64,000 bases of DNA from Bryum argenteum (taxonomy: Eukaryota; Streptophyta; Bryopsida; Bryales; Bryaceae). The notes under the pieces are model-generated. The model was not told where the DNA came from. It made no database searches and saw only the letters and a list, made by a program, of their open reading frames with translations. This document shows, piece by piece, positions 20,399 to 64,000 of this stretch (position 1 is the first letter of the stretch; each line of letters begins with the position of its first letter). The stretch is taken from positions 17,587,001-17,651,000 of the forward strand of contig CM073325.1 in assembly GCA_037043015.1 (NCBI GenBank). The letters are read 5' to 3'. The translations under genes and the position numbers were made by a program.

Positions 20399-20520
20399 GG
20401 GCCCCGGTAAGGGGGCAGTCCAAAAAATGGGGTATGCCGGTAAGTGTACCCAGCGCACGGTATTCTTTAGTAAAAGGCGAAAGAATAGTTCGCTCTGTGC
20501 TGAGCACCCGGCTCCGTGAC
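20399..20520 (-). ncRNA. U5: U5 spliceosomal snRNA, copy 1
   Basis: On the minus strand the invariant loop I sequence CGCCTTTTACTAAAG sits at the tip of a stem (CTTT with AAAG, extended by ATT/AAT). Loop I holds the exons together during splicing. Enclosing stems pair in nested order (GTG/CAC, then CCGG/CCGG). An Sm-protein site, ATTTTTTGG, follows, and a 3' hairpin of CCCC and GGGG closes the RNA. The length of about 120 nt matches U5. The 5' end is set about 25 nt downstream of a TATA-like box. This copy has the best Sm site of the three. Its partner U1 gene lies about 490 bp upstream on the same strand. Confidence 0.93.
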
Positions 20521-20542
20521 CTGAATTTCTTCGGTGCGGGTT

Positions 20543-20590
20543 GTTATACGCAGTCAATGTAAGTGGAAGCGGCAATAACTATGGGGTATG
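20543..20590 (-). promoter_or_regulatory. snRNA promoter of U5 copy 1 (USE and TATA-like box)
   Basis: Reading the minus strand, a USE-like element (TACCCCATAGT, compared with the plant consensus RTCCCACATCG) lies near 20590-20580. TATAAC follows at 20548-20543, about 31 bp downstream. That spacing is the one plants use for RNA polymerase II snRNA genes; Pol III genes have about one helical turn less. Confidence 0.6.
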
Positions 20591-21005
20591 CAGTAACCGA
20601 CTTCCTTGTGTAATGTACTCTTTGTCCTTCCCAGCATTGTCTGTTTCATCGCCTTCCTAACGCAGCGCAAAGTTACCATCACTTCGAGCCTGACGCAGCT
20701 TTAGCATCTTCCCACTTCTCTCAACGCTTCGCAACATCTGCCTCTTGTCAGCGCTCCCAAGGTATTGCACGTGCCATTAATGTATCAATGTATCAATTAA
20801 CATGAACAGAAGCGAACGTCTGCTTGGCAATGAGAGATTGCTAGGTTGCCGTTGCACTCACTGACGAAGCGCGAGCTTGAGGCACGAGGTAGTAATTGCT
20901 TTCACCTTGTCTCGGAGCACTTACCTACGGTATGAGATCTCACAAACTGCAGACTGGACTTGGATTTTGTTTCGAAACTCCCCTATCTCCAGTTTATGTT
21001 TCGTC

Positions 21006-21167
21006 TGGGTAGAGGCCGCGCGAACGCGAGCCCCTGCTGCCACAAATTATGACGTGTGTGCCTCCCGTAGGAAGACCCTAGAGTTGTCCGGCCCGGAGTG
21101 CAATGGGGCAGACTTCTCTAGGCCATCCACCTTCCTGATCATGGATCGACCCCGCCCAGGTAAGTGA
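21006..21167 (-). ncRNA. U1: U1 spliceosomal snRNA, copy 1
   Basis: The minus strand begins with ACTTACCTGG, which pairs with 5' splice sites. Next come a stem-loop I with GATCAGGAAGG (the U1-70K site), a stem-loop II loop ATTGCACTCC (the U1A site), an Sm site ATAATTTGTGG, and a 3' hairpin with CGCG-TTCG-CGCG at its tip. The 162-nt length is right for U1. The two bases before ACTTACC read TC where AT is usual, so the exact 5' end is uncertain. One base of the terminal stem differs from copies 2 and 3 and leaves a G-U pair. Confidence 0.94.
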
Positions 21168-21186
21168 GGAACACATTGCAATTCGG

Positions 21187-21237
21187 GCTATTTGAATGCT
21201 TGAGACAATCCATGATCAACCAATTGTTGTGGGACAT
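21187..21237 (-). promoter_or_regulatory. snRNA promoter of U1 copy 1
   Basis: On the minus strand GTCCCACAACA (nine of eleven matches to the plant USE) lies at about 21235-21226. A weak TATA-like TCAAATAG lies near 21195-21188, about 30 bp downstream and 20-25 bp before the RNA. This is a Pol II-type arrangement. The USE core is conserved in the duplicate at about 29787. Confidence 0.6.
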
Positions 21238-21903
21238 TGTTATGATCCAATCTTTATATGCTTATGCTCGAAATCCGACAGCTTATGAAGCAAAACCACT
21301 CATGTGGTGACATCGGAGCAGAGATCAGCGACTATTGATAAGTTTAGTGCACATTTAGGATGTTTGTTTGTGTTGATTGAACTGAAAAATCAATACAATT
21401 GCTGTCCTTGAGTTAGAAGAGCAAACGGTTGTCCTTGTGTTGCTCTTCCGTATTGCACTTTCGTGTTTTTCTCTCTAGTATATTGAGACAAGAGTTTCTC
21501 TGATTTCTCGACTTCGAGAAATCCCAACAAGGCCTCATTGCCACAAAGGACACCGCCCTTTAAGCTTCGGTGACACTCGTTGCTGCAACTTCAGGCAATT
21601 GCTGTGACACGACTGGGCCCTGGAGCTCGCGCCACCGCCAACCTCCACACCTCACCATATCAGCACCCATCGTCGTTCTGGAGGAACTTGGAGAATCATA
21701 AGACAAGAATCTATTATAATTTCAGAGCATGAACTGCATTGAGCATTTTCCTGAAAGGAGCAAAACCTCGTCTATTTCTCGGTTCAAATGATGAGATACC
21801 TGAGACTTTTCAACACCTGAGATTGATAAATATCTGCGAACATGTGGGGACCGAATACGTGGAAATCTATAGTTCGATGGAGATTGCTCTAAAGAGTTAT
21901 ATT

Positions 21904-22025
21904 GATGGCCCCGGTGAGAAGTTAGTCCAGAAAATGGGGTATGCCGGAAGGTGTATCCAGCGCACGGTATTTTTTTTGGTAGAAGGCGAAAAAATAGTCT
22001 GCTCTGTACTGAATATTTAGCTGCG
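21904..22025 (-). pseudogene. U5 snRNA relic
   Basis: It is a recognisable U5 body, but loop I reads CGCCTTCTACC where CGCCTTTTACT is expected, and the Sm site has a C inside the T run. The 5' third is diverged. The stem beside loop I has changed C-G to T-A on both sides and so kept its pairing. It is probably non-functional, although a divergent expressed variant cannot be excluded. Confidence 0.8.
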
Positions 22026-28909: not shown

Positions 28910-29032
28910 ATGGGCCCCGGTAAGGGGGCAGTCCAAAGAATGGGGTATGCCGGTGAGTGTACCCAGCGCACGGTATTCTTTAGTAAAAGGCGAAAGAATA
29001 GTTCGCTCTGTGCTGAGCACCCGGCTCCGTGA
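28910..29032 (-). ncRNA. U5: U5 spliceosomal snRNA, copy 2
   Basis: Loop I (CGCCTTTTACTAAAG) and its stems match copy 1, and the 3' hairpin is intact. The Sm site reads ATTCTTTGG, with a C inside the uridine run, which may weaken Sm binding. Expression therefore seems less certain than for copy 1. The upstream TATA-like box and USE-like element are retained. Confidence 0.87.
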
Positions 29033-29054
29033 TCTGAAATTTCTTCGGTGCGGG

Positions 29055-29104
29055 TTGTTATACGCAGTCAATGTAAGTGGAAGCGGCAATAACTATGGGG
29101 TATG
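29055..29104 (-). promoter_or_regulatory. snRNA promoter of U5 copy 2
   Basis: The same arrangement as copy 1: TACCCCATAGT near 29103-29093 and TATAAC near 29062-29056 on the minus strand. The region is nearly identical to copy 1. Confidence 0.58.
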
Positions 29105-29558
29105 CAGTAACCGACTTCCTTGTGTAATGTACTCTTTGTCCTTCCCAGCATTGTCTGTTCCATCGCCTTCCTAACGCAGCGCAAAGTTACCATCACTTCA
29201 GCCTGACGCAGCTTTAGCATCTTCCCACTTCTCTCAACACTTCGCAAAATCTGCCTCTTGTCAGCGCTCCCAAGGTATTGCACATGCCATTAAATTGTTT
29301 CTTTTGTTGACCCGATCAATGTATCAATTAACATGAACAGAAGCGAACGTCTGCTTGGCAATGAGAGATTGCTAGATTGCCGTTGCACTCACTGACGAAG
29401 CACGAGCTCAAGGTAGTAATTACTTTTCCCTTCTCTCGAATCATTTCCCTACGGTTTGAACTTCACCAATTGGAAGCTTAACCTCAACTTATGTTCACTT
29501 CTAGTTACTCCACTTTATGTTTCTGTTCACCTCTAGTTACTCCACTTTATGTTTCGAT

Positions 29559-29720
29559 TGGGTAGGGGCCGCGCGAACGCGAGCCCCCACTGCCACAAAT
29601 TATGACGTGTGTGCCTCCCGTAGGAAGACACTAGAGTTGTCCGGCCCGGAGTGCAATGGGGCAGACTCCTCTAGGCCATTCACCTTCCTGATCGTGGATC
29701 GACCCCGCCCAGGTAAGTGA
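29559..29720 (-). ncRNA. U1: U1 spliceosomal snRNA, copy 2
   Basis: All U1 landmarks are present on the minus strand: ACTTACCTGG at the 5' end, GATCAGGAAGG in loop I, ATTGCACTCC in loop II, Sm site ATAATTTGTGG, and the fully paired GGGGC-stem 3' hairpin. The length is 162 nt. As in copy 1, the first two bases read TC and not AT. Confidence 0.94.
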
Positions 29721-40119: not shown

Positions 40120-40339
40120 GCCCGACTGCAGCAGCCGGCAGCATATTCCTGGCGCAGGAGTGCTCCTTGTGATTGAGGAGCCCCTTGCTAGGCTGCGGTG
40201 TTTGAATTTCTGTGTTGTTATAGAATTGAGGCCATTAGGGTTTGAAATCTATGCGTCACTGGTATCGACGGGATCCGGCAGCAGAAGTGGTTAGGGTTTC
40301 GGATATTGCTCCGTAGAATTGGAGTTGCGGTGCGATCAG
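40120..40339. promoter_or_regulatory. Probable shared (bidirectional) promoter region
   Basis: Only 220 bp separate the two outward-facing start codons at 40119 (minus) and 40340 (plus), so the two genes probably share regulatory DNA. No classical TATA box stands out. Leaders may overlap, since an in-frame upstream ATG for the RING gene lies at 40319. Confidence 0.4.
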
Positions 40340-41659
40340 ATGACGTCTGTGGAAGGAACGTATTGGTGTCATCAGTGCAATCGGACTGTGAGGCCGACGA
40401 GTCGGGATGAATTGATCTGCCCGACGTGCAGCGGGGGTTTTTTGGAGGAGATCGATAGCTCCACTGCGAACGATTTCCCAGGAGCAGGTGTGCACGATGC
40501 GTTCGGATTCGGGGGCGGTGACGTGGATGGAGGCGATCGGTACGATGCACCAGGGGGTGTGTCAGCAGGATTTCGGCGATATCAACCGGAGGCGAGAGGA
40601 ACACGGGGCTATCCGGGTCGGAGCGGACAGGGCCACCCGGCGGTGCTTCAGGTGCTAGAGGCGATGTCGGCGGTGCTACAGCAAATCCAGCCTCCTCAAG
40701 GTGGGCAGGGACAGGAACAGGAGGGTGGCGAGGGGGACCCGAGCGGTGACGGGACGCGGGGAAGGGCGGGACGAGAAGGAGTTGGAGGTATGGGAGGGGA
40801 GGGGGGGTTCAATCCGATGATGATGCTGCAAGGGCAGATGCAGAACTTTCTGGGAGGAGGAGGAAACGTGGAGGTCTTCTTCGACAATGGGACGGGGAAT
40901 CCGAGGCGACTGCCTGGAAATTTCGGAGACTATTTTCTGGGGCCAGGGCTGGATCAGCTGATCCAACAGCTGGCGGAGAACGACCCGAACAGGTACGGGG
41001 CTCCTCCGGCGTCGAAGAGCGCGGTGGAGGCTTTGCCGAGGATCAAGATATCGGAGGAACATTCGGGGACAGACGCGGCACAGTGCGCAGTGTGCAAGGA
41101 CGAGTTTGAGATGGGAGCTACAGTGCGGCAGATGCCATGTAAGCACATGTACCACGACGATTGCATACTGCCATGGCTGGAGCAGCACAATACATGTCCA
41201 GTGTGTCGATACGAGATGCCAACGGACGATCAGGACTACAATCAGAGGCGGGCAGCAGGGTCTCAGGGTGCGAGCACCGGTACGGCGGCATCGAGTGCAG
41301 CCCCCGCGGCAAATAGCGCGGGAGCTGGTGCGGAGGCAGGAGGCACGTCCGGGGGGTTCACGTTCTGGGGCTCACCGGCAGGGTTCGGGTTGGTGCCTGC
41401 AGAGGCTGTTGGAGTTGGCAATCGTGATGCGGGATCGAGCGGGCCGGCGAGCGGGTCTCAGACGAGCAGTGCAGCTCCAGCAGCAGCAGCGAGTGGTGGC
41501 ATTGGGAGACGGTTTTCGATCCATCTACCATGGTTTCGGTCGTCGGTACCTCCGGCGCCAGCGCCTCCTCCAGGACCGGGTCCGTCAGAAGGTGGTGGAG
41601 CAGCAGGGAATCAGAGCCCTAGCAACAGTAGAGATGAGCCGCACCCGGAATCGGAATAG
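40340..41659 (+). CDS. RING-H2 E3 ubiquitin ligase with N-terminal zinc ribbon (BTL/RDUF type)
   Basis: An intronless gene of 439 residues. The start MTSVEGTYWCHQCNR was preferred over an in-frame ATG seven codons upstream, because the family begins just before this motif. Residues 8-35 form a zinc ribbon (WCHQCNR ... CPTCSGGFLEEID). The middle is Gly/Gln-rich. The RING-H2 domain (about residues 236-285) has CAVCKDEFEMG, CKHMYHDDCILPWL and TCPVCR, so all eight ligands are present, and the Trp that contacts E2 enzymes is there. The Ala/Gly/Ser-rich tail ends with a short FSIHLPWF motif and a Pro-rich stretch, resembling the C-terminal region of RDUF1/RDUF2-like ligases. The expected role is transfer of ubiquitin from an E2 to substrates, often in stress or ABA responses. 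The substrate cannot be inferred. Confidence 0.93.
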   Translation: MTSVEGTYWCHQCNRTVRPTSRDELICPTCSGGFLEEIDSSTANDFPGAGVHDAFGFGGGDVDGGDRYDAPGGVSAGFRRYQPEARGTRGYPGRSGQGHPAVLQVLEAMSAVLQQIQPPQGGQGQEQEGGEGDPSGDGTRGRAGREGVGGMGGEGGFNPMMMLQGQMQNFLGGGGNVEVFFDNGTGNPRRLPGNFGDYFLGPGLDQLIQQLAENDPNRYGAPPASKSAVEALPRIKISEEHSGTDAAQCAVCKDEFEMGATVRQMPCKHMYHDDCILPWLEQHNTCPVCRYEMPTDDQDYNQRRAAGSQGASTGTAASSAAPAANSAGAGAEAGGTSGGFTFWGSPAGFGLVPAEAVGVGNRDAGSSGPASGSQTSSAAPAAAASGGIGRRFSIHLPWFRSSVPPAPAPPPGPGPSEGGGAAGNQSPSNSRDEPHPESE

Positions 41660-43913: not shown

Positions 43914-44035
43914 ATGGGCCCCGGTGAGGGGCAGTCCAGAAATTGGGGTATGCCGGAAAGTGTAACCAGCGCACGGTATTCTTTAGTAAAAGGCGAAAGA
44001 ACAGTTCGCTCTGAGCTGATCACCCGGCTCTGCAT
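43914..44035 (-). ncRNA. U5: U5 spliceosomal snRNA, copy 3
   Basis: Loop I (CGCCTTTTACTAAAG) is intact on the minus strand. The Sm site reads AATTTCTGG, with one C in the uridine run. Two stem positions (in the AAAGAACA and GAGCTG segments) no longer pair, with no compensating change on the other side. The 3' hairpin is shorter but present. It is probably a weak or inactive copy. Confidence 0.82.
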
Positions 44036-44057
44036 TCGACTTTTAATTGGTGCAGGT

Positions 44058-44105
44058 TCTTATACGCAGTCAATTTAAGTGAAAGCAGCAACCAGCATGG
44101 GATAA
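44058..44105 (-). promoter_or_regulatory. snRNA promoter of U5 copy 3
   Basis: On the minus strand TATAAG lies near 44063-44058. A USE-like ATCCCATGCTG lies about 30 bp further upstream, near 44103-44093. The Pol II-type spacing is kept. Confidence 0.5.
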
Positions 44106-44305
44106 AAGTCACCGAGTCTCTTGTGTGAATTACTCGTTCTTCTTCACAGCATTGCATTTTTCATCACCTTCCCGACACTCCGAGCCTGACGCAGCTTGAG
44201 CATCCCCTCTTGACACTTGCAACATCTGGTTCTCTGTCAGCGCTATCCTGGCGGCACTCGCTGTTCAGTCCACTCAAGAAGTATAAGCATATATCGTACG
44301 TTCTT

Positions 44306-44570
44306 GCGACGTGATGCAGGTAACACTCTCAATTTAAATTTCTCGAGACAGCTCAAGACGAATGAAAATGCCACTGGACGATTTATACCCAGGGAATATG
44401 CGCAGTATTAATCACGAGTCTGCAGTGGCTCCAACTGGTATGTTTCGTTGGGTAGGGGCGCGACGTGATGCTGGTAACACTCAATTTAGATGTCTCGAGA
44501 CAGCTCACGATTTTTGAGTCTGCAGTAGCTCCAAGTTGTGTTTCGCTGGGTAGGGGCCGCGCGAACGCGA
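44306..44570. repeat. Tandem duplication at the 3' end of U1 copy 3
   Basis: The text GCGACGTGATGC(A/T)GGTAACACT, then CTCGAGACAGCTCA, then GAGTCTGCAGT, occurs twice. The first unit ends in a stub of the U1 3' hairpin (GGGTAGGGGCG near 44450) and the second runs into the complete U1 gene. It is a short duplication of the gene's 3' flank. Confidence 0.75.
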
Positions 44571-44708
44571 GCCCCTGCTGCCACAAATTATGACGTGTAT
44601 GCCTCCCATAGGAAGATACTACACTCACCCGGCCCGTAGTGCAATGGGGCAGATTCATGTAGGCCATCCACCTTTCTGATCATGGATTGACCCCGCCCAG
44701 GTAAGTAC
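44547..44708 (-). ncRNA. U1: U1 spliceosomal snRNA, copy 3
   Basis: All U1 landmarks are present. The 5' end reads GTACTTACCTGG, closer to the usual ATACTTACCTGG than copies 1 and 2. Loop II is ATTGCACTAC, a natural-looking variant of the U1A site. The Sm site ATAATTTGTGG and the 3' hairpin are intact. It is diverged from copies 1 and 2 in stem regions, which makes it the oldest branch of the three. Confidence 0.93.
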
Positions 44709-48785: not shown

Positions 48786-50954
48786 CATACCGCTGCGCTT
48801 TCATGTCAAGCAATTTCTGTCCTTCATCCGGTGAGCTACTAATACTGTTCAGTCTTTTCGCATTTTCGCTCGTTCTCCATACTGCCACATTTTTATTTCC
48901 CCTTCATTTCATTGGTGAGTTCCCCCGCATCAACATCCAGAGAGCTACTGAACGAGCTCCATAGTCTCCCTTTTTTTCCCTTAGTTTCATTGAATGGCTT
49001 TGCGCTCTCCAACCGAGTAGTCTTGTTTTTTTCCCTGAGTTTCGTTCCTCTCAAAGCATCAATCGGGGGGTGGAGAGCAAGCGAAAAACATCCACGCTCC
49101 GACAAGTATACAGGTGTGCTTGTTCTCGTTCTCCAGCCTGTGTCATTTTTATTTCCCCTTCGTTTCATTGGTTCTCCGTCAGTCTGCATCAATGTTGGAC
49201 GAGTTCCATATCTCCACGACGTATCAAGCGTTCTCCCTATACCATCGTTCAAAACCTCCACCTTAACATCCTGCCGGGCCTTAGTCAGATTCGTATCTCC
49301 TGAACAATTTTGACATTCCTTCAAACATCCTCAAACATCCTTCTTCATGAAGTTGAAGCGAGACTCACAGTAATGCTAGTTTACGGTCATACCGGACCCC
49401 GGATCTGAACGACGGATTTGAACGTGAATCATGAAAATTCAGCAAATCAATGGTACCGATGCACCAACAACTCGTCGTCAGACATGATTTTTTTTTTCCC
49501 TTAGTTTCATTCAAGTCGTAAAACTTCTCTACATCCATCGCCAGGGTCCAATAAACTACATAGGTGGATAAAAATGGCTTCGAGTGGACTCCCGTCAATG
49601 TTGCTTTCCTTGGGGTGCTTCAGCTTGGTGGTCCACCGCACAACTGTCGACGTATCGAATCCCCTCCCCGGAAGATCTTAGGGACATAGCGAACGTTGTT
49701 ACCGCCACCGGTTCGTTCCTTTGCCATCTTGGATCCATCCGAAAGCCAATCCCACATGAAATTAGACTGGCATCGAATTGAACAAACGAGACTCAAATGT
49801 ACGGGGGACCAATGCTTGGTAAATTCCAAAGTAATCCACCACCAGGTCCAAAGACATCGCTCGCATTGACTCCATCTCCGCTGCCTCTTAAGTCCACCGA
49901 TCCTATTTTGAACCTCTGTTGATCACATATTTATTTTCGTGGATGAGAAAATATGCATCTCCACTGTACTTCAAAATCTTGTGCTGGACGGACTGCTAAT
50001 TTATGGTCGTCCCGGACCGTGGCACCCCAAACTTCTGGACGACCATCGAGAACCATCTAAGTCAGCTGGGATGAATCTTCGGGGCACGCTAGTTTAGGGT
50101 CGTCTCGGACCATAGCACTCTGGCTTCCAAACAACCGTCGATAATCACGCAAGTCGATCAGGAAGGCGTGCTAGTTTAGGGTCGTCCCGGACCAAGACAC
50201 GAGCAGTACCATGTTGCTCATACAGTATTATTCACAAGCATGCAACTGAATAAATGAAGGGCCGCACTAAAAAATCAAAACAAGACTCGGAGTAGTGTGG
50301 CACAGAAGCGAGGTAAAGGGAGACTAAAGACCAATATGCAAAAAACTCTACCCCTTCTGTGAGGGAGGAGACCCCATTTATTAAAAAATATCAAGTCCAA
50401 CTTCAGTGAAGTGATTGGGACTACGCAAACAAACCTATGAACTATTGACTAGAAGTAAACTGCTTCAGTGAAGTCCGAGCATTCACTTTCTGTAACTGAG
50501 TATTGTCGCCGTCGGAATCCTCAACTACAGGAACACGTACACACTCGCTTGAATTCTTGTGGGTGCCGGGCCATGAGATCCGTCCACAAGCATGAAGAAG
50601 CACCTTGAGAACCACCTTGGGAACCACCTTTTGAACCATCTCCTCAAATTAATATCATCTCCAAATCGTGGAGGACTTCGGTATAGTCTTCATCTCCTTT
50701 GCAATTCCTGCAACATCACAACTTCACAACAAGTGGCCACGAACGGTGGTTTTTTTAAAACGGAAGGCTGGTGGCAATTGAGATACACCGCCTCGGCCCA
50801 TATTTACGAACAGTAGTTCGTAAATGTTTACGGCCTTCAAATTTCTGTACGAATCATGTAACAGATACGATGTGCAGCAGTGCAGGTATCCTAGTTTAGG
50901 GTCGATCCGGACCAAACATGCATTCATCGGCTCATCCATCCAGTAATTTCCTCC

Positions 50955-51205
50955 TAAGTCTCCAGTCGCTCACGAACAAGCTTTCGTAACAATGTAATAT
51001 GAAGCTGATGGACGGCAGACATCCTAACGGTCAGCAGGAAGTGCATTTTAGAGCACTCACGAGTATTGTGCATATCAGTACTCGAAAATGCCATTCAAAA
51101 TGGGGTGCCCGAAAATACTCTTCGTGCTCAACGTCACGATGATTGCAGACGATCAATTTCATATCACACCGTTATGAAAGCTGATTCGTGAGCGACTGAA
51201 GACTT
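50955..51205. repeat. Long foldback HP1
   Basis: The left arm from AAGTCTCCAGTCGCTCACGA pairs with the right arm ending TTCGTGAGCGACTGAAGACTT. Pairing extends inward through GCTTTCGTAAC / GTTATGAAAGC and ATATGAAGCTGATGGACGG. Arms are about 70 bp with mismatches. Part of it (GAGCGAC...GAGAC) recurs near 52040. Confidence 0.7.
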
Positions 51206-51231
51206 TGAAACCCAGTTCAAATTCTCTCATG

Positions 51232-51428
51232 ATTCCTCGTCTTTGTTATGTTTACTCGTACGATATTCTCCCAGCAACTCAAGGTACAAAACGATGAGGG
51301 CCATATTTGGACAAAGTTCCAATCAATTCTTAACTCACGCCATGATTCTACTTCGTAGTAGCATTACTTCAAAGTAGCCCGAGTTGTCAGGAGAATATGA
51401 TACGAGCAAGCAAAACTAAGAGGAGAAA
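51232..51428. repeat. Long foldback HP2
   Basis: The left arm CCTCGTCTTTGTTATGTTTA, then CTCGTACGATATTCTCC, is mirrored at 51378-51428 by GGAGAATATGATACGAG, then CAAGCAAAACTAAGAGGAG. Arms are about 50 bp with a roughly 95-bp loop. Confidence 0.7.
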
Positions 51429-51670
51429 CAATACTTCTTTCACTCCCTTGCCACAACTCTATCTCAATACGAACAAGTCTCCGGGCTCCAAATCATATGC
51501 TCTAAATCAGATACTCAGTCTCCACTGCGCTTTATACGTAATGGGTTGACAATGAAGCTTACAATTTGGCCTTTTGTAACCATGTAATGCCCACTTTATC
51601 CAAGGCAATCAACTTAACGCGAAACATGAAAAGCATCTTCCAGCATTTGCTGGATCTGAGGCGAGAGGAG

Positions 51671-51949
51671 GCTTGGTAGTAGAGAATAGACTTGGGTGTC
51701 TGCTTCTTCCAGCTCTTGCTCAGTACTTAAACCCAACGAATTTCAAGCTTCTCTGTCGGAATTCTCCAAGTGTCGAGCACTTGGATTACAATATCAGTAG
51801 AATTGAACACTGTTCAGTGCTACTGATTCTGTAATCCAAGTGCCAGTCAACGAGAGAATAGCGAGAGAGAAACCTGTAATTCATTTGATGTAAGTACGGG
51901 GTAAGAGCGGAAAGTAGCAGACATACGAGTCTATTCTCTACCACAAAAC
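51671..51949. repeat. Long foldback HP3, small-RNA-precursor-like
   Basis: The inner arms GCACTTGGATTACAATATCA (from 51777) and TGATTCTGTAATCCAAGTGC (to 51843) are nearly complementary with a tiny loop. The outer arms also pair: GTAGAGAATAGACTTGGGTG near 51677 with the mirror of CGAGTCTATTCTCTACCAC near 51945. The whole is a stem of about 140 bp with spaced mismatches, typical of a MITE or a young plant microRNA precursor. Confidence 0.75.
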
Positions 51950-52692
51950 TAGCAAATGCCGGAAAATGCTCTTCAAGTTTAGCGTCACGATTATTGCTTT
52001 GGATGAACTCGACATCAAATGGTTAGAAAAGGCGAAATTGTGAGCGACAGGAGACTGTCAACCATTTACATATAAGGGGCAAAGGAGATCGAGTAGCAAA
52101 GGGAGGCATGAATTAGAGACCTGAAGGTTGCACATATTGGGAAAGAGGGGCACATCTGCTAGTTTAGGGTCATTCTGGACCATGTCTCAACGCTTCGAAC
52201 AACCATGGGGAGTACCAAGGACTAGTACTCCTATTTGATTCACTGCTTACGAACGGCCGTTCGTATAATCAAGTAAACAACATTTTAAATACCAGCGTGA
52301 TTCATGAAGATAGCCAACTGCGGCCACGTAATTACATCTGTATGGTAACTGTCAACCGTCATGGACATGCTTATTGCATTACACACTAAGAAATAACTGT
52401 CTAATTTAATCAACATCTAAGTCAATGTGACTTCCTTTCTAAGAATGTAAAGTGAAGGGGGGAAGCCCAAAATAATTTGTAAGCGGGAGATGTATCGAAC
52501 AATACATTTGATGTCAATTAACATACTACGTTCTCCCAAGTTTATTTTTCTGTATTCATTTTTAACTGTTTGGCATTCACTTGGGAATATATAACATTAT
52601 GCTACTTTCTTATGTTAGGCATTTCAGATAGGTTGACATTATTTTTTTTGAAATCTTTACATGTAACTCATGGACGTGGGCTTCATTCATAA

Positions 52693-55600
52693 TTATTCCG
52701 GGCAGGAACCGGAGTCCGCATCGTCCTCATACGCACGCGGAGTACCAGAGGAGTCGCTAACGGAAACCACCATCGGATACTCCGGACATTCGATAGGCTC
52801 CATGTCCTTGCGTTTTACACCATGACAACTGCCGTAATGCATTTGTCCGACAGTCCAAAGGTCATGTATTTTTTGCGTGGCATTGCTGTGGAGATAGGGA
52901 ACCTGAATATACAACATGTGCAACTCGAAGTATGAGCCCAGGTCGGAAAAACGTGTTCATGGTTTCATTAATTCCTTTGATCAATCTGTACAATGCTTAA
53001 CAAGTATGGTTGCTCCACTCCCTCGGGTAATCTGAATGGTATGGACAGTTTTGGATTTGCTGAGGGAGAGGGACAACCCTGCTATAGGGGAAAAAGAAAC
53101 AAAATCTGTGATAGGGAAAAATGCGTCACCCTATCGAATGGCTAAAAACCCACGCTGACTAACTATTAACAACTGGAACTACCCAAATGGGTTTCCAGCC
53201 CCAATATAATATCTATGGATTGCCAGCAGCAGCAGAGTCTTCCCCCGCAGTATCCACATGGGCGGGGACAAATATCCTGGATTGTACCTGTTTAGAAGAA
53301 ACAGATAACATCAACAACCTTACCATACATGGGAACATCTATGTCTTGGTTATTCATGTAAGGTACTGAGAGTTCGTTCGACATACACGGAAAATCTTAG
53401 TTCTGAGGACTTACCATTGGGACTGTAGAATCCGGCTCCGTGACGGTGGGCGGATCCGAGAGCGCAACGATGGATGGAGAAGCAGCGTTAGAGACCCCGG
53501 ATTGTATTTCGGACCGGAAGCCAGGAATAGATTCCTGGTTAACGATTGGGAACGTAATCTTCCCCGTTTCAAGGTCCTTGTACACCCTCTGGAGGACCTC
53601 CTCCCTTATCTTCTTCTCCAGCCTCTCAGTCACCTCTTGAAGCTCGGCTTTGCGCTTCCGTGACTCTGCCTCGATTCTCTCCGTCTTCACATCCTACAGC
53701 TCTTGACCTGTCTGCTGGGATGAGGCAGCTCCTGAAGGGATGTCATTCTCCTCCTCCGCCGGATCGGGCTTCTTGGCTTCGACCGGGACCCGAACATGGC
53801 TGATTCCTGCTCGATTAATGGCAAAGTTCCCCTTGGGAGGAAGCACGCACTGGAAGCGTTGGAACAGCCTTCCTCTGACTCGCTCATCCTCCTCATCATC
53901 AGAAGAGTCACTGTTGAGGATTATACGGTCCGGGGCTGGTCTCGAGAACTTCTTCGCAAAGACCTCGTTGTCCAGTTCGATCTCTTTGGCCCTTTCCTCC
54001 CTCCGTCTCCTTGCAACCTCTTCTTTGGCCCGCCACGCCAGTTCTGCTTCCTTGGCAATCCGCCTTGCCATGGCCTCCTCGTCCTCTACGTCCATGCCTT
54101 CGCCCTCAACCGCCGCGGGGGTCACCACAGGGGTTGCCTCCAAGAAAGCTGAATCTTGCTGAAGTGACGTTGACGCACTTCCCTCTGCGACAGCCTTCCC
54201 CTTCGACGCCATCTCTGCCTCGGCCATCTCCATCATTCCCTTCGCTGCGTCACCCTTCTCCATCGAGGCATTTTCTGCCTCATGCTCAGCCAACTCACTC
54301 GAGGCTTTCAGCTCAGCCATGGCCTTCTCCTTTGCAACGGCCAACTCTGTCGGAGCCTTCGCCTCAGCCTCGGCCCTCTCGACCGAGGCCTTCGCCTCTG
54401 CCTCGGCCAACTCTCTCTTGGCCTTCGCCTCAGCCTCGGCCAACTCTCTCCCGGCCTTTGCCTCAGCCTCGGCCAACTCTCTCGCAGCCTTCGCCTCAGC
54501 CTCGGCCCTCTCGACCTCAGCCTTGGCATGTGCCACCGCCGAGGCCTTCTTCTCTGCCTCGGCCAACTCTTCCCTCTCCATGGAAGCCATCGCCTCTGCA
54601 TCCACGCTCTCCGTCGTGGGCATCTCATCCTCGGCCCTTGCGAGGTCCGCCGCTGTGGCGTCCTCGCTCTCTGCACTTACGAACGGCCGTTCGTAAGTAC
54701 AAGGTATCACAGCCCATTGGGAATCCACGTCCCCCAAGTCAATCGTGCGCTGCTCGGGACTTAGCAATATCTGTGCCAGTCTGCTCGTTAGGACATCCGC
54801 AGAATCCTCTGCGATCCTAGCTATTCGATACTGAGAATGCGCATGGACGTCCTCGACCTCCACTTCAGTATCGACTTGGGCCTCCGCGAAATTGCTGCTT
54901 GTGTCCTCCTGTTGCACATTCGCAGGCACTTCGTCGACCGAATTCACATGCTGCTCTTCCACCCTTGGTTCAGGACCCCCGCTGGACACCGAATCATCCA
55001 CCTTCGATCCCGGAGACCTTTCCGATTCTCCCGAATCACCGGATCGCGAATCTACATCGTCCTTGTCTCGGGATCCTGACTTCAAGGAGAGGACTTCATC
55101 CTCTGCTGTAGGACTGATCGGATCAGCAACGCCTGGCGATGTCTCTACGTCTGGCAGAACTTCGTCATTCTCGTCGGGGCGTTGAGAACTCTGCGTAGAT
55201 ATCCCAGCTCCAACACTTGATTGTGACTGGTGAACAAAGTCGTCCCTGTCCTCAGGGTAAAATGCACCCGGCCTCAGACCTGCCACGACCTCGTAATTTA
55301 CAAGCGGGTAGACGACCCTGAAATCATACGAGTCAATTAGATCCCCGATCATTAGTTCCTTCTTCGGAAGGAAGTATATCGGCCACATCGAAGGACCCTC
55401 CGACACCGCCTTGAAGGACAAGGATACATTCCTATGCCGAAACGTTTCAATGCAGATTGTGTTCCTCTCCATCATCTGATACACAACAATGCCACAACTA
55501 ATTAGTAAGGTCGAAAAACTTACGAACGGCCGTTCGTGAAATGCACTGAAATATGAGGTTTACGAACTGCCGTTCGTAACCAAACACCAACAGAATCTTA

Positions 55601-58600
55601 CCCGGCAAGCGCGCAGGGCTTTAGTGCCGGCAAAAGCCAGAATGATGTTGTCGTTCTTCTCCGTGTGGCGGGAAAGGAACCGCAAATACGTCTCCATTTG
55701 CAATTCGTCACTGTAGATGAAGTCCTTGTGCTCGGCCCGATAGAAATCTTGCTTCTCGAAGTGCTTCCCGAGCAATGTCTCTTCAGCAATGTCATCGGAG
55801 AAGTAGCGCTCGTTGCCGTCAGGATAGGTGAACTTCTTCTCCAGGTACGTGATGGAATCGACCTGCGCTCTCTTTGCCTTCGCCATTGGCTCGCCCGGCA
55901 TGTACCTGTACTGGACATGCTTACAACGGTACTCCGTGAAGAAGTTTGCATGAAGCATGTCCACGTAGCTCTGGCGGTCCACGGGGGCAATAATCATCCA
56001 CGCCTTGACGTTGGCGCAACCAATTTTCTCGGTCCTTTTCTTGATGTTGACCATCATCATCTGCCAGCTGGTTGTAATCTCGGCAGCCGTCGACACCGGG
56101 AGGGAAATGGCGGAGATCAAGAATGCCGGCGGTAAGTTTCTTCGACTTGAATGGCCTGGTTACATTCTTGTCCAGCAGACCAGCTGGACCGAACTCTGCA
56201 GTCCCGTTCGATAGCCTGTTCTCCGTAGGCTTCCACGCAATAAATACAGACCAGTTGCCCGAGCGGACAGCATCTGTTCGATACTCGTTCACCAAGGCTT
56301 GGTCAATTCTCTTCCGGCATTGCTTGGGGGGAAACTCTGGGGTCTTCTTGTTGACCGCAATGGTATCCTTGATGAAGCTTTCCATCCCCTCACTGAAGTA
56401 GATTGCTTGCATGATGCAAGAAGAAAACATAGTCTTCTTCTTCCATTCCTTCCATGCTCCGGATTTTACCTGCTGGTTCTCGTCGAAGAAGGGATTAAGA
56501 TCCTTCTCCACGTACGAAATACGATCCCCAATGGTTTTGAGGATGACGTCCTTCCACTTCCTCCGCTCGCAGTGCTTCTCCAATAAAAGAGCCCGAGTCC
56601 AATTCCGAGGGGCCTTTCCAAGATAAATACGCGGGGGGTTCGCGAGGATGTAGTCCGCAGCCTCCTCAACTTGAGCCGTCGTTAAGCTCGCGAGTCCACG
56701 GAGGGATGTTCCGGAGATGAGACTCAGGTTTGTCAGCTCTTTACAATTCGCTGAATGCTTCACCTCTTTCCCCGTATCCAGGTCGATCAAATCACCGGAC
56801 TCGAAGTTCTTGAGGACTTTCTCCCATTTCTCCCACACGTTGTCGGGTGCCATAATTATCTGGCGTTCACCCCTCTTCTCCCACTCGACAGTAATTGGTC
56901 GATTGGGATTCTCCTGTTTGATGGTATGGCTCAGGGATTGGATTGCTCTCTCGCGGAACGACTGCGGCACAAAAAAGTTCAGCGGTTAGAAATTGTACGC
57001 ACGGCCGTTTGTAAACTACTTGCTCTGCGTACCGTGATGTGAAATTCTTCTATGACTTTGCTACTCTAATATGAAGTTGTCCTTAGTTTACGAACTGCAG
57101 TTCGTAAAATGAATGATATTTTTTCTTGCTTGGTTTTACGAACTGCAGTTCGTAAAATAAACGATATTTTATCTGCTTGGTTTTACGAACTGCAGTTCGT
57201 AAAACTACTGATATTCTATCTTGCTCGTTTGAAATGATGACTGCTTCACTAAAGAAGTTCAGCGGTTAGATGTTCGGATACGCACGACTGTTCGTTTACT
57301 TCGCTGTGCATTTTGAGATCTCATGTGCATCCCTATCGTTGTGAGACAAGACTATCAAGAAGCAGTCCACAGTTTACGAACTGCAGTTCGTAAATTAACT
57401 CTTACATGCAATCCTGCTTGTATTAAAAGAAGAGAAGGTAATTACCTCATATTTCTGTTTTAGGATCGGATCCACCTTGTCATCCTCCACCGCCTCTTTC
57501 TTCTTTCGAGTCACGGCATTCTTCCTAACAAGTGGAGGTTTCCCCTCTTGCTCATACAGCACGCGACAGTGCAAAATAGCGCGGAGAAGTGACGTCAGGT
57601 GCCTCGCCTCGTTCTGGCCCTCGTTGCACTTGAAAGATAGGGCGTGCAAGTGGTGCACCTTGTCCGTCCAGACGACCTGCACGTCCCAAACCTTCAGCTC
57701 TTCCACTCGGTGGCAGCTCCTACGCATTGTCTCGTCTCCGAGGATGGACTTGGCGGCATGCCAAGTGTGTTGCCCGTTGATGATCTTGAACGTTCCGGCT
57801 TTGACACATTCCATCCAGTCCGTTGGCCTCCTCGAAAGATTCGGCATCACCGTCAGAATTGGCTTCGTGAAGTTGTGCACGAGCAGGCTGCGCTTGATCT
57901 CTTCCGCCCCAGAAGCTTCGTAGTCGCGATAAATTTTCCCACAACGGTGATCACTGGGCTCCATGTGTCCGATGGCGAGCTCGAAAAGCTGGTCGCGACC
58001 AAATATATACATGTAATCCGAGTCTTTGATGAATTTCTCATTGAGCTCGGCCTTCCTGCGTAGCAAGACATCCTTGTCTTCGTTCTTCGGATGTCCCGTC
58101 GTGGAAACTTGGGTCTCCAGGTGATATGGGATCTCCAAGGTTGCATCAAATGGTCTGGCCGCCGGATAGGAAGACCAAGTGTCCACAGTAAGCAACGTAA
58201 CCTTCGCTGGCTTCGCCTGCGGAAGGTTAATGATGTTCCGGATGTCGTCTACGCGTCCGGATGGTGCACTGCCTTGCACGGGGTTGTGCCCGGTCTGTGT
58301 AGGCGCCGCGGCAAGGATTGCGCCAGTGATGTTTCGAACCGGAGAACTCAGTCCGGAACTGCGGGTGCTTCGCGTCGATGGTATTCTCTCCGTTTGGACT
58401 GCTGCCTCCGGATCTGGAGAAAATTCGCCATGCACAGATGCGGATGCACTCCGCTCGCGTGCAAGCAATCGGAACTCCCGATCCTTCTCCTCTCTGCTTT
58501 TTGAGCTTGGGTACTCTCCGCGACATGGGTTACTTGCCGAGGTCTCTGCACATGACTACCACGGCGCGGTTCGGCGGTACTTGGACGAACCCCCTTGTTG

Positions 58601-58780
58601 GTGCGGAACGTCGCTTTCGATCGCCATCACGACCTCGGTGCCCTTCGTGCTCGTTCTCGCATCCGGCTTCTTTGTGCGCTTCGGGGCTTGGCTCTGTCTT
58701 CGCTTTGGTCGCCCATGGTGATCGGCTCTCGCCTCGCTCCCGAGTTTAGTCTGCAGATCTGAGACTTCCTCAATCGACAT
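52693..58780 (-). CDS. Large multi-exon gene with a ParB-like N-terminal domain, function unknown
   Basis: Exon A runs from MSIEEVSDL at 58780 to a GTAATT donor at 57446. It contains IKRSLLVHNFTKPILTV and FKIINGQHTWHAAKSIL, which match the ParB/Srx fold pattern (PI-V-strand, then II-GxHR-xxAA). Exon B (56961-55602) is a charged, helical domain I do not recognise. Exon C (55475-53415) starts at MMERNTICIETF and is acidic, then has about 12-residue Ala/Glu repeats (RELAEAEAKA) forming a likely coiled coil, and ends in a charged helix. A last exon (52902-52693) is possible; exons between 53413 and 52902 are unclear. A-B and B-C junctions are in phase. The model carries two in-frame amber codons and one frame change, so it is either recently broken, mis-modelled or edited. 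A basic PKRRQSQAPKRTKK stretch near the N-terminus could be a nuclear signal. An origin by transfer or from a selfish element is possible but unproven. Confidence 0.55.
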
Positions 58781-58899
58781 GCAACAAGGCCTTCTATTTG
58801 CTTCATCAAGCGGTTCCAAACATTTGCTATATCGTAGGATCCATGTTGATACGAAAGCCAAGGTCCTAGGTTGTTGAATATAAGCATCTTCCATGGATC

Positions 58900-59480
58900 G
58901 TCTAGTCTAGCGGTTTCGTTCAAGCAGTATTGAATATCGAACGGATGGTTGTCATCTAGACGTATAATAAGTTTACCAATCATCATATTTGACACCAATG
59001 TAAGTATCATTACGCCCGGGGAACTATTTAAACCATGTACTGAAATACCACGGAACGCCTTTCAGCGGTACTGGTTATTGGCCATGGGTTTTCCCACTGC
59101 CAGTTTGAATATGACATTGTGATCCATGGTTGTTGCCTCCGGGGCTATGGACCACGCAGAATTGCTAACCCCGTTAAGGGTTACTGCAGTCTCCGACTCC
59201 AGTACTTCACTTCTTTCCCATTCAGTAAGATCTGACGATTGTAATTCTGTGATGCAGGGGGACAAATTCGACGTCTGCGACATGAACCTATTATCGTCCA
59301 TCCCTGAGATTTCAGACAGGTAGGAGTTGTAAGCGGTCCGATATCACCACAAGGTATGTCACTTGCATATCATGGTTTACGGACGCTCGGTCATAGTTTA
59401 CTACACTGACATACAGAAGACGTTCTATCCGTCCTAAGAGGGGTTTCGATTCAGTTATGATTCATCCTTGTAAGCAGGGA
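58900..59480. other. 5' flank of the ParB-like gene
   Basis: No independent gene is seen. Short minus-strand frames (for example 59062-59301) have no motif and could be leader exons. The palindrome cluster begins at its right edge. Confidence 0.4.
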
Positions 59481-59689
59481 ATAATTTTACAAACTGCCGT
59501 TCATAAGTTTACTTCACTCGAGACGTGACTGACTCGACCTTGCACCTTATGAACGGCCTAGTACTGCGACCAAACTGCCGTCATTTCACTAACGCCCATG
59601 TTTTAGTTACTGAGGTCGTGACTCCTCAGCTTACGAACTGCCGTTTGTAATTGAGGAAAAGTCGACCTAACACGTAGCACGCGACCAAA

Positions 59690-60365
59690 TTTGACGAACG
59701 GCCGTTCGTTAATATCACGCCTACTGCCAAGCAGCCGTTACTAGACCTAACTGCGAATCTAATTGCCTACCTTGCAACCTACCTAACTGTCTACCTAACT
59801 TGCCACCTCATTTTACGAACGGCCGTTCGTAAGTTACTGAGATTGCAAACACTCAGCTTACGAACGGCCGTTCGTTTCATGATTTATATTTCCAGTATAC
59901 GAACGGCCGTTCGTTTTATTTTTCGTAGTGTCCCATTGCTAACTTACGAACGGCAGTTCGTAAACTCTAACACATGTGCTGACGTGTCAGTATCTCCAAG
60001 TGCTTTTGCAACTGCTGTAAGATAGGACCTCAAGTTAGAAAAATTGGACCTCGAAATTTACGAACTGCCGTTCGTAACTATCACACTTACTGCCAACCAT
60101 CCGTTACTGGACATAACTGAGAATCTGATTCCGTACCTTGCTACCTTACAAACTGTCTACCTAACTCGCAACCTTATTTTACGAACGGCCGTTCGTAAGT
60201 TACTGAGGTTGCAAACACTCAGTTTACGAACGGCCGTTCGTTTTCTTATTTGTACTTCCATTATACGAACGGCCGTTCGTTTTCTTTTTTGTAATGTCCG
60301 ATGTAGAACTTACGAAAGGCCGTTCGTAAACTCTGGAACACGTGCTGACGTGTCAGTATTTCCAA
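59690..60365. repeat. Tandem duplication, about 366-bp period, carrying palindromes
   Basis: Two units share the same order: CGTTACT(A/G)GAC, CTGTCTACCTAACT, palindrome, GTTACTGAG(A/G)TTGCAAAC, palindrome, palindrome, palindrome, CTGACGTGTCAGTAT. Each unit carries matching palindromes at matching positions, so the array grew partly by duplication of a larger block. Confidence 0.85.
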
Positions 60366-61514: not shown

Positions 61515-64000
61515 CAAAAAAGAACTCAAAGAATCCGGAAAGTTAACCCGAAGGAAAAAGCTCACCACCAACTGAGTTCTTTTAAGTCTTTTACATACAA
61601 AGAAAACCTCAAAATAGACAAAAAAGAACCTTAAAGAATCCGGAAAGTTAACCCGAAGGAAAAAGCTGACCACCAACTGAGTTCTTTTAAGTCTTTTACA
61701 TACAAAGAAAACCTCAGAATAGACAAAAAAGAACTCAAAGAATCCGGAAAGTTAACCCGAAGGAAAAAGCTCACCACCAAGTGAGTTCGTTTAAGTCATT
61801 TCCATACAAAGGAAACCTCAAAATAGACGAGAAAGAACTCAAAGAATCCGGAAAGCTAACCCGAAGGAGAAAGCTGACCACCAACTGAGTTCTTTTAAGT
61901 CTTTTACATACAAAGTAAACCTCAAAATAGACAAAAAAGAACTCAAAGAATCTGGAAAGTTAACCCGAAGGAAAAAGCTGACCACCAACTGAGTTCTTTT
62001 AAGTCTTTTACATACAAAGAAAACCTCAAAATAGACCAAAAAGAACTCAAAGAATCCGGAAAGTTAACCCGAAGGAAAAAGCTCACCACCAACTGAGTTC
62101 TTTTAAGTCTTTTACATACAAAGAAAACCTCAAAATAGACAAAAAAGAACTCAAAGAATCCGGAAAGTTAACCCGAAGGAAAAAGTGACCACCAACCGAA
62201 GTTCTTTTAAGTCTTTTACATACAAAGAAAACCTCAAAATAGACAAAAAAGAACTCAAAGAATCCGGAAAGTTAACCCGAAGGCAAAAGCTGACCACCAA
62301 CTGAGTTCTTTTTAGTCTTTTACATACAAAGAGAACCTCAAAATAGAGAAAAAAGAACTCAAAGAATCCGGAAAGTTAACCCGAAGGAAAAAGCTGACCA
62401 CCAACTGCGTTCTTTTAAGTCTTTTACATACAAAGCAAACCTCAAAATAGACAAAAAAGAACCTTAAAGAATCCTGAAAGTTAACCCGAAGGAAAAAGCT
62501 GACCACCAACTGAGTTCTTTTAAGTCTTTTACATACAAAGGAAACCTCAAAATAGACGAGAAAGAACTCAAAGAATCCGGAAAGTTAACCCGAACGAAAA
62601 GCTCACCACCAACTCAATTCTTTTAAGTCTTTTACATACAAAGAAAACCTCAAAATAGACAAAAAAGAACTCAAAGAATCCGGAAAGTTAACCCGAAGGA
62701 AAAAGCTCACCACCAACTGAGTTCTTTTTAGACTTTTACATACAAAGAAAACCTCAAAATAGACAAAAAAGAACTCAAAGAATCCGGAAAGTTAACCCGA
62801 AGGAAAAAGCTGACCACCAACAGAGTTCTTTTAAGTCTTTTACATACAAAGAAAACCTCAAAATAGACAAAAAAGAACTCAAAGAATCTGGAAAGTTAAC
62901 CCGAAGGAAAATGCTGACCACCAACTGAGTTCTTTTAAGTCATTTACATACAAAGAAAACCTCAAAATAGACAAAAAAGAACTCAAAGAATCCGGAAAGT
63001 TAACCCGAAGGAAAAAGCTGACCACCAACTGAGTTCTTTTAAGTCATTTACATACAAAGAAAACCTCAAAATAGACAAAAAGAACTCAAAGAATCCGGAA
63101 AGTTAATCCGAAGGAAAAAGTCGACCACCAACCGAGTTCTTTTAAGTCATTTACATACAAAGAAAACCTCAAAATAGACAAAAAGAACTCAAAGAATCCG
63201 GAAAGTTAACCCGAAGGAAAAAGCTCACCACCAACCGAGTTCTTTTTAGTCTTTTACATACAAAGAAAACCTCAAAATAGACAAAAAGAACTCAAAGAAT
63301 CCGGAAAGTTAACCCGAACCCTGAAAAAGCTCACCACCAACCGAGTTCTTTTAAGTCTTTTACATACAAAGAAAACCTCAAAATAGACAAAAAGAACTCA
63401 AAGAATCCGGAAAGTTAACCCGAAGGAAAAAGCTGACCACCAACTGAGTTCTTTTAAGTCTTTTACATACAAAGAAAACCTCAAAATAGACAAAAAAGAA
63501 CCTTAAAGAATCCGGAAAGTTAACCCGAAGGAAAAAGCTGACCACCAACTGCGTTCTTTTAAGTCTTTTACATACAAAGAAAACCTCAAAATAGACAAAA
63601 AAGAACTCAAAGAATCCGGAAAGTTAACCCGAAGGAAAAAGCTCACCACCAAGTGAGTTCGTTTAGGTCATTTACATACAAAGGAAACCTCAAAATAGAC
63701 GAGAAAGAACTCAAAGAATCCGGAAAGCTAACCCGAAGGAAAAGCTGACCACCAACTGAGTTCTTTTAAGTCTTTAACATACAAAGAAAACCTCAAAATA
63801 GACAAAAAAGAACTCAAAGAATCTGGAAAGTTAACCCGAAGGAAAAAGCTGACCACCAACTAAGTTCTTTTAAGTCTTTTACATACAAAGAAATCCTCAA
63901 AATAGACAAAAAAGAACTCAAAGAATCCGAAAAGTTAACCCGAAGGAAAAAGCTGACCACCAACTGAGTTCTTTTAAGTCTTTTACATACAAAGAAATCC
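61515..64000. repeat. Satellite array, about 104-bp unit, about 24 copies, continues past window
   Basis: Units follow the pattern GAACTCAAAGAATCCGGAAA, GTTAACCCGAAGGAAAAAGC, T(C/G)ACCACCAACTGAGTTCTT, TTAAGTCTTTTACATACAAA, GAAAACCTCAAAATAGACAA. Successive GTTAACCCG starts are 104-105 bp apart. Copies are about 95% alike, with sub-patterns suggesting a higher-order unit (variants CTTAAAG, GACGAGAAAG and AAGTGAGTTCG recur at intervals). The 104-bp length is not a multiple of three and units differ by indels, so this is not coding. It could be a pericentromeric, centromeric or other heterochromatic satellite. Confidence 0.95.

Follow-up and report, generated by a model that had tools for sequence, protein, structure and literature searches.

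A 20-bp palindrome, TTACGAACNGCNGTTCGTAA, is found 22 times, with three mismatches or fewer, between positions 50,804 and 60,329 of a 64,000-nucleotide stretch of the moss Bryum argenteum (hereafter the window), where it surrounds and interrupts a spliced minus-strand gene. Judging from their sequence, these palindromes look like selected protein-binding sites, and the first exon of the gene shows weak support for a ParB-like domain. The explanation that we favour, with somewhat less than even confidence, is that the locus is a selfish, transposon-like unit whose own ParB/Srx-like protein may bind the palindromes in order to regulate or de-silence itself.

Palindrome array and gene model

The whole window was scanned for the 20-mer. 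Stretches with up to five mismatches number 24, every one of them inside the same interval; the two weakest, at 50,970 (four mismatches) and 57,278 (five), were left out of the 22, ten of which are exact matches. The 16-bp core ACGAACNGCNGTTCGT is present 17 times, with an expectation of 0.00, and none of 100 dinucleotide shuffles reached that count. All 22 copies lie within 9.5 kb near the gene and none in the remainder of the window. The preliminary description, which had counted about 22 sites, only in and around the gene, was therefore accurate on both points as far as the 64 kb extend. It had also placed a string, KPILTV...FKIINGQHTWHAAKSIL, in a first exon on the minus strand, and this string does belong to an open frame, exon A (57,446-58,555), which ends with what looks like a good 5' splice site and carries the ParB/Srx-like stretch at about 57,656-57,904.

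The remainder of the gene model, also on the minus strand, consists of intron 1 (56,962-57,445; GAG/GTAATT ... CAG/TCG), exon B (56,164-56,961), with no match to a known domain, exon C (55,602-56,060), intron 2 (55,476-55,601; CGG/GTAAGA ... CAG/ATG) and exon D (53,694-55,475), which begins after CAG/ATGATGG and stops with a TAG at 53,694-53,696. The product of exon D has an acidic region and repeats of 11 residues in tandem, the latter encoded by a 33-bp tandem array at 54,338-54,507. Exons B and C do not share a frame. A possible phase-0 intron of 103 nt (56,061-56,163; AAT/GTAACC ... CAG/ATG) would reconcile the two, and a genuine frameshift is equally possible because the GC content of this putative intron is 0.56. 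Past the in-frame TAG, an open frame of 98 codons (53,397-53,693, minus strand), coiled-coil-like by eye, probably belongs to the ancestral last exon, since its GC3 is coding-like (0.65). This TAG, with coding-like sequence beyond it, is the main sign of decay. The frame change between exons B and C was dropped as a further sign because the 103-nt intron could explain it. The TAG at 58,556 and the TGA at 59,062 are less sure signs; both may fall outside exons.

The palindromes, to which no strand is assigned, lie around and within this gene. Palindromes 1 (50,804-50,823) and 2 (52,247-52,266) lie downstream of it. Palindrome 3 (54,677-54,696), in exon D, is the sole one within a modelled exon, and reads in frame, flanking bases included, as TYERPFVS. 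Intron 2 contains palindromes 4 and 5 (55,520-55,539 and 55,560-55,579), and intron 1 contains palindromes 6 to 10 (56,995-57,393; starts at 56,995, 57,088, 57,136, 57,183 and 57,374), three of which sit in a 47-bp tandem array at 57,087-57,225. The upstream cluster (59,487-60,329) comprises palindromes 11 to 22, starting at 59,487, 59,631, 59,692, 59,813, 59,858, 59,897, 59,944, 60,058, 60,179, 60,224, 60,263 and 60,310.

Signs of selection on the palindromes

Two forms of the palindrome were distinguished, TTACGAACGGCCGTTCGTAA and a CTGCAG form. At the left variable position, 13 copies have G, 8 have T and 1 has A. Changes at the centre had been described as keeping the dyad symmetry. The point is weaker than described, as it holds for 16 of the 22 palindromes (12 G..C and 4 T..A) but not for the other six, with Fisher p = 0.047 for the 21 palindromes with G or T as left centre base; moreover, the four T..A cases are all in one intron, three of them within the tandem array. 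The information content is 1.56-2.0 bits at positions 3-5 and 16-18, and 0.98-1.73 bits at positions 1, 2, 19 and 20.

This composition bears on a first alternative, in which the palindromes are operator sites of a host transcription factor such as a MYB protein. AACNG is the MYB core; it is present in 20 of the 22 left arms and, as CNGTT, in 21 of the right arms, the variable central base is mainly G or T, and 12 palindromes are upstream of the gene. Conservation nevertheless reaches outward past the core, to positions 3-5 and 16-18, further than a MYB core would need. Off-site AACGG and AACTG show no strong concentration in the interval (16 against 9.1 expected and 20 against 17.5 expected, respectively), and a host factor does not readily account for the intronic and downstream palindromes. 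We regard this alternative as unlikely, if worth keeping in mind.

When palindromes with a flank identity above 40% were linked, 11 groups resulted. The 210 between-group pairs have a median flank identity of 0.28, equal to that of random places, while 13 of all 231 pairs exceed 40% (1.5% of random pairs do so), some of them outside the two site-bearing duplications. The palindrome is thus a discrete site unit of about 20 bp, occurring in 11 groups with unrelated flanks. Such discrete units, of about 20-24 bp and with one copy in frame in an exon, could also be expected if no protein bound the palindromes and they were either small units that move or form hairpins, or a by-product left by recombination. 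We consider this improbable in view of the following distribution, and of the lack of any copy elsewhere in the 64 kb.

A spaced tandem duplication of 366 bp (59,688-60,353; copies at 59,688-59,987 and 60,054-60,353, 85% identical) carries five palindromes per copy, all five positions being occupied in both copies. Between the copies, the palindromes differ at 5 of 100 positions and the sequence outside them at 39 of 200 (p = 5e-4, from five site pairs), so that the sites are conserved beyond their flanks; gene conversion could be an alternative cause. The palindromes also avoid exons, which make up half (50%) of the interval and contain only one of the 22 copies (p = 5e-6), or one of the 11 groups (p = 0.006). 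These statistical tests were devised once the sites had been seen. The earlier view of the palindrome as a bound site retains, on this basis, a dyad site that, in one duplication, varies less than the sequence around it and that is kept out of exons; that the encoded protein is what binds it is something that we infer.

The palindrome was also found in other DNA, namely in four viral contigs with near-identical flanks and in six prokaryote stretches from three genomes. These matches were judged unrelated to the locus. Neither of the two records from which L001 and L004 derive contained the PHROG 723 profile discussed below, which was found in 9 of 14 control genomes. Neither of the two 16-bp forms of the palindrome had a match in the literature text searched. 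The string TTACGAACGG does occur in eight published papers.

The ParB-like region and the search for relatives

The resemblance of exon A to ParB/Srx proteins, proposed in the preliminary description, was recovered with one profile and not with others. Exon A matches PHROG 723 (ParB-like) with E = 6.6e-4 for the core, 0.0012 for a longer piece and 0.0035 for the whole frame, whereas four decoys gave 0.11 or worse. This match is not far above noise, because PHROG 25295, an unrelated family of unknown function, also matches the N-terminal part of the same protein at E = 0.0053. Three pieces of exon A gave no match to the Pfam ParB family up to E = 10, NCBIfam returned no ParB match, and the sole match of a PDB sequence search is not ParB. 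In Pfam, DUF5038 was matched at E = 0.0041, under its family cut-off, and further matches were weaker. Two single-sequence AlphaFold models of exon A pieces (pLDDT 34.5 and 44.8) were too poor for a fold test; with the second, low-confidence model as query, the best Foldseek match was a tyrosine phosphatase (E = 0.37), and neither ParB nor sulfiredoxin was among the 50 matches listed. A ParB-like domain in exon A is therefore weakly supported.

ParB partition CTPases carry the motif GERRxRA for CTP and phosphate binding, and canonical bacterial parS sites are usually present in few copies. The locus could be a true eukaryotic ParB/parS-like module, in which a CTP-dependent clamp would load on the palindromes and spread, nucleating chromatin or aiding the segregation of a selfish locus. 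The ParB-like signal of exon A and the palindromic sites clustered beside the gene are shared with the bacterial systems, but the place of GERRxRA reads GQHTWHA (by eye), the gene is spliced and eukaryotic, and the palindromes are unlike canonical parS and more numerous. No ParA partner was found by Pfam in 15 distinct frames from the 48.8-59.4 kb region, and no DNA-binding family, helix-turn-helix included, reached its cut-off in the scanned frames of exons A, B, C and D, where the weak matches under the cut-off are to families other than helix-turn-helix. The suggested membership in ParB/parS partition is not supported, and a clamp of this type is, in our opinion, quite improbable.

More distant still is the possibility that the locus is an integrated viral or plasmid-like replicon with the palindromes as origin iterons. 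Clustered repeats do adjoin a gene with a ParB-like signal, but the gene model is spliced, no replication protein was recognised in the Pfam-scanned frames and no relatives were found among viral contigs or phages. In detail, exon A (299 residues) gave six pattern stretches in viral contigs and 45 in prokaryote species genomes, none of which was confirmed; these scans were seeded by exact 8-residue words, so that only close relatives were reachable. It had no match in phages up to E = 1, and exon B gave one stretch in viral contigs, also unconfirmed. A degenerate INGQHTW pattern occurred in eight viral contigs, six of which, by eye, have a Cys-containing protein (ECxKCxAVWINGQHTW) in common and two another; these were rejected as relatives, the best tblastn match having E = 0.008 in a small database, with a stop within the alignment.

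The same 15 frames contained no transposase detectable by Pfam, and no second copy of the locus is visible within the window. To look for terminal inverted repeats, 44-50.9 kb was compared with 60.25-61.6 kb, using exact 8-base matches as seeds. This gave six candidates, of which the longest (13 bp) is without target duplication and a 9-bp pair at 47,047 and 60,636 has a 5-bp duplication; none is convincing and all were taken as chance. Among the matches listed in a search of the literature on ParB in bryophytes, algae and transposons, no description of a plant ParB-like locus of such design was found.

Comparison with transposon self-recognition

The VANDAL transposons of Arabidopsis encode anti-silencing proteins, VANC, that act with short motifs, those of VANC21 being 9 bp long (YAGTATTAY) and in a single orientation; transposase, motif binding and methylation loss have all been demonstrated there (PMC5735166; PMC10398659). 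As far as the available parts of these reports describe them, VANDAL elements resemble the present locus in the density of a short, element-specific motif in introns, intergenic and terminal noncoding DNA, and in evolution by tandem duplication. Here, 21 of the 22 palindromes lie outside modelled exons and the 47-bp and 366-bp duplications bear sites, the status of an element being presumed. Both systems encode a protein with tandem peptide repeats (PMC5735166), so that the site-bearing local duplications and the repeats of the protein would parallel VANC targets and VANC proteins. The differences are the 20-bp palindrome in place of a 9-bp motif in one orientation, and the lack of any transposase found here; the likeness is one of layout. 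No VANC-type match was obtained by Pfam in the frames scanned.

Two other eukaryotic cases involve ParB-like domains. Algal transposons, for example Sola1-1 of Ectocarpus, have an accessory protein combining ParB-like and DNA methyltransferase domains, for which binding to its own element was proposed, with function given only as a possibility (PMC12477816). Both are eukaryotic genes with a ParB-like domain, but the frames scanned here had no Pfam match to a methyltransferase domain or a transposase, and the portion of that article available mentions no site array for Sola1-1. A plant ParB-DCD protein has likewise been reported to contain a ParB domain (PMC1182354, in the part available), whereas the exon frames here gave no Pfam match to DCD. 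By analogy, the nearest working model is the self-recognition of transposons, as in VANC/VANDAL, rather than plasmid partition.

Under our favoured explanation, the locus would be a selfish gene unit resembling a transposon, perhaps a copy in decay, whose multi-exon protein begins with a ParB/Srx-like domain and continues into a long tail rich in repeats. The array of at least 22 palindromic sites would serve a dimeric DNA-binding protein, most likely this same one, which would act in cis and also, in trans, on sister copies. Dense binding upstream, in introns and downstream might allow this protein to control its own transcription, and the bound protein might protect the unit from being silenced by the host, as VANC does on VANDAL elements. 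Binding and dimerisation of the encoded protein, anti-silencing, mobility, sister copies and decay are all points that we infer. It is conceivable, though we would not expect it, that a nuclear selfish element of a land plant has captured a ParB/Srx-type protein and uses it with its own 20-bp palindromes for anti-silencing self-recognition, perhaps nucleating and spreading like bacterial ParB. Such a system would be ParB/parS invented anew in a eukaryote and turned to anti-silencing, which is a similarly long shot.

To our knowledge, sequence-specific anti-silencing by mobile elements has been worked out in detail for VANDAL elements only. If the proposed explanation is true, a second type of protein with a precise palindromic target would point to the repeated evolution of self-recognition arrays, and a compact, testable DNA-binding domain with its site would become available as a means to tether proteins in plant chromatin. 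The same outcome would hint at a role for the ParB-like proteins described, in the part of the report available, in algal transposons (PMC12477816).

Recurrence and placement of the palindrome

A scan of the full window for the 20-bp palindrome TTACGAACNGCNGTTCGTAA returned 22 copies with at most three mismatches, all located between positions 50,804 and 60,329, in agreement with the roughly 22 repeats around the gene announced in the preliminary description. Two weaker matches in the same interval (four and five mismatches) were left out of the 22. Ten of the copies are exact, and the 16-bp core occurs 17 times, versus none in 100 dinucleotide shuffles. The exact 20-base pattern was retrieved from four contigs of the viral collection (viral_contigs), with near-identical flanks, and from six stretches of three genomes in the prokaryote collection (genome_contigs); it is therefore no common background word in either. 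The Candidatus Aenigmatarchaeota genome CP066684.1 carries a double-hairpin motif four times (L013 2050, L016 811, L017 1228 and L018 7635), one half of which matches the palindrome pattern exactly while the other reads TTTGCGAA...TTCGCAAA or its reverse complement. This is an archaeal dispersed hairpin whose likeness to the palindrome is presumably coincidental.

The gene itself is a minus-strand model whose exon borders are predictions read from the sequence. The open frame of exon A (57,446-58,555) ends at GAG/GTAATT, exon B starts after the CAG at 56,961, exon C runs as far as 55,602 (CGG/GTAAGA) and exon D starts after the CAG at 55,475. The longest frame in 53,397-58,774 reaches 621 codons, a few of them in intron 2, versus at most 262 in 200 shuffles, and the GC3 of exons A-D is 0.63-0.76. 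The frame changes from exon B to exon C, which reflects either a real frameshift or a 103-nt intron. Exon D contains a 33-bp tandem array (54,338-54,507) encoding 11-residue Ala/Glu-rich repeats. Since coding-like sequence continues for 98 codons past a TAG at 53,694, decay of the gene is suggested.

The palindromes avoid the exons of this model. Placement was tested with an exon set (57,446-58,774, 55,604-56,961 and 53,397-55,484) covering 50% of the interval; the final intron-2 borders lie up to 9 bases off this set, and no site changes class. Intron 1 contains five sites and intron 2 another two; twelve lie upstream, two downstream and a single one in exon D (1/22 exonic, binomial p = 5e-6). 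The bias persists after merging the two main duplications (1/15, p = 5e-4) and when groups of sites are counted (1/11, p = 0.006). These groups derive from a comparison of the two 25-base flanks of each site over all 231 site pairs, whose median identity was 0.30, versus 0.28 at random positions of the interval. Flank identity exceeded 0.40, a level reached by 1.5% of random pairs, in 13 pairs. Intron 1 has a tandem array of 47 bp and the upstream region a spaced duplication of 366 bp, and these two account for most of the 13; the few others, within intron 1 or among the upstream sites, indicate additional and older rounds of local duplication. Linking the pairs above 0.40 yielded 11 groups, and the 210 between-group pairs have a median flank identity of 0.28. 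Thus, no fewer than 11 unrelated contexts share one site of about 20 bp.

Conservation and symmetry of the sites

The palindromes are more conserved than their surroundings. In the five site pairs of the 366-bp duplication, differences affect 5 of 100 positions within the sites versus 39 of 200 outside them (Fisher p = 0.0005). Selection of well-conserved sites is an unlikely cause of this difference, because the scan, which admitted up to five mismatches, gave no site with four or five mismatches in this stretch. Gene conversion could also have preserved the sites, but would need tracts as short as about 20 bp. All 22 sites agree at positions 3, 4, 7, 10, 13-15 and 18. Alternatively, the sites may be read by a host factor, for example a MYB protein, but the conservation reaches outward to TACG/CGTA, which speaks against a plain MYB core. 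The outer CpGs are kept in 40 of 44 cases and all four losses are CG to TG or CA, as methylation decay would give.

Changes at the centre had been described as keeping the dyad symmetry. The centre pairs are G..C (12), T..A (4), T..C (4), A..A (1) and G..A (1), and their coupling is weak (p = 0.047), with the T..A part contributed by sites of one intron; the compensation argument is for these reasons thin, and conservation and placement are better arguments for the sites.

The ParB-like signal of exon A

Exon A has a 170-residue core that hits PHROG 723, 'ParB-like partition protein', with E = 6.6e-4, versus a best E of 0.11 among the decoys of this core (the reverse and three shuffles). The signal is nevertheless modest, because the whole 386-residue frame gives E = 0.0035 with an unrelated family close by at 0.0053. 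Searches of Pfam and NCBIfam gave no ParB match, the sole match of the PDB sequence search (E = 0.57) is not ParB, and both AlphaFold models fall below usable confidence. The position of GERRxRA, the CTPase motif of ParB, reads GQHTWHA. The earlier reading of the first exon as ParB-like is accordingly kept in a weaker form, and the putative domain is labelled ParB/Srx-like rather than ParB.

Genomic setting and possible self-recognition

Three U1 and four U5 spliceosomal RNA matches mark the window as nuclear DNA of a eukaryote. These form three paired U1-U5 units (20,399-22,022, 28,912-29,720 and 43,916-44,708) plus a weaker fourth U5, all on the minus strand; such linkage suggests a plant, perhaps a moss, in line with the plant nucleus of the preliminary description. 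A plus-strand open frame of 454 codons (40,295-41,659) resembles a RING-H2 ubiquitin ligase by its motif. Six copies of CTAGTTTAGGGTCGTCCCGGACCA (0-4 mismatches, all plus strand) lie within 2.8 kb (49,376-52,182) and overlap the palindrome region at its downstream end; this motif contains TTTAGGG, the plant telomere unit. Two MITE-like fold-back structures (50,956-51,205 and 51,557-52,045) have a 71% repeat in common, one with 101-nt arms at 77%, the other with 137-nt arms that are separated by 1 nt and lie inside a pair of 105-nt arms; located beside the gene, they are possible sources of hairpin RNA. A 104-bp satellite of about 24 copies (94% matches; 61,515-63,997) adjoins the palindrome locus, reaches the window end and contains no palindrome within five mismatches.

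Discrete, constrained, locally multiplied and placed in the noncoding parts of a single unit, the palindromes surround a gene with a DNA-partition-like domain, and in this the locus fits a self-recognition system. The closest worked example is VANC, from the Arabidopsis VANDAL anti-silencing system: the VANC motif is described there as dense only in VANDAL21, its regions as changing tandem repeats, the protein as located at introns, intergenic and terminal noncoding regions, and VANC proteins as carrying tandem peptide motifs (PMC5735166). A second source describes an Ectocarpus transposon accessory protein with a ParB-like domain, proposed to bind its own element, and reports similar proteins from green as well as red algae (PMC12477816). 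No transposase turned up in the selected frames that were scanned, and a limited search within the window revealed neither terminal repeats nor a second copy. Joining VANC-type self-recognition with a ParB-like transposon accessory protein, we infer, as a tentative first choice, a selfish transposon-like locus whose own ParB/Srx-like protein reads the palindromes. The encoded protein would bind the palindromes, dimerise and counter the silencing of a locus that may be mobile.
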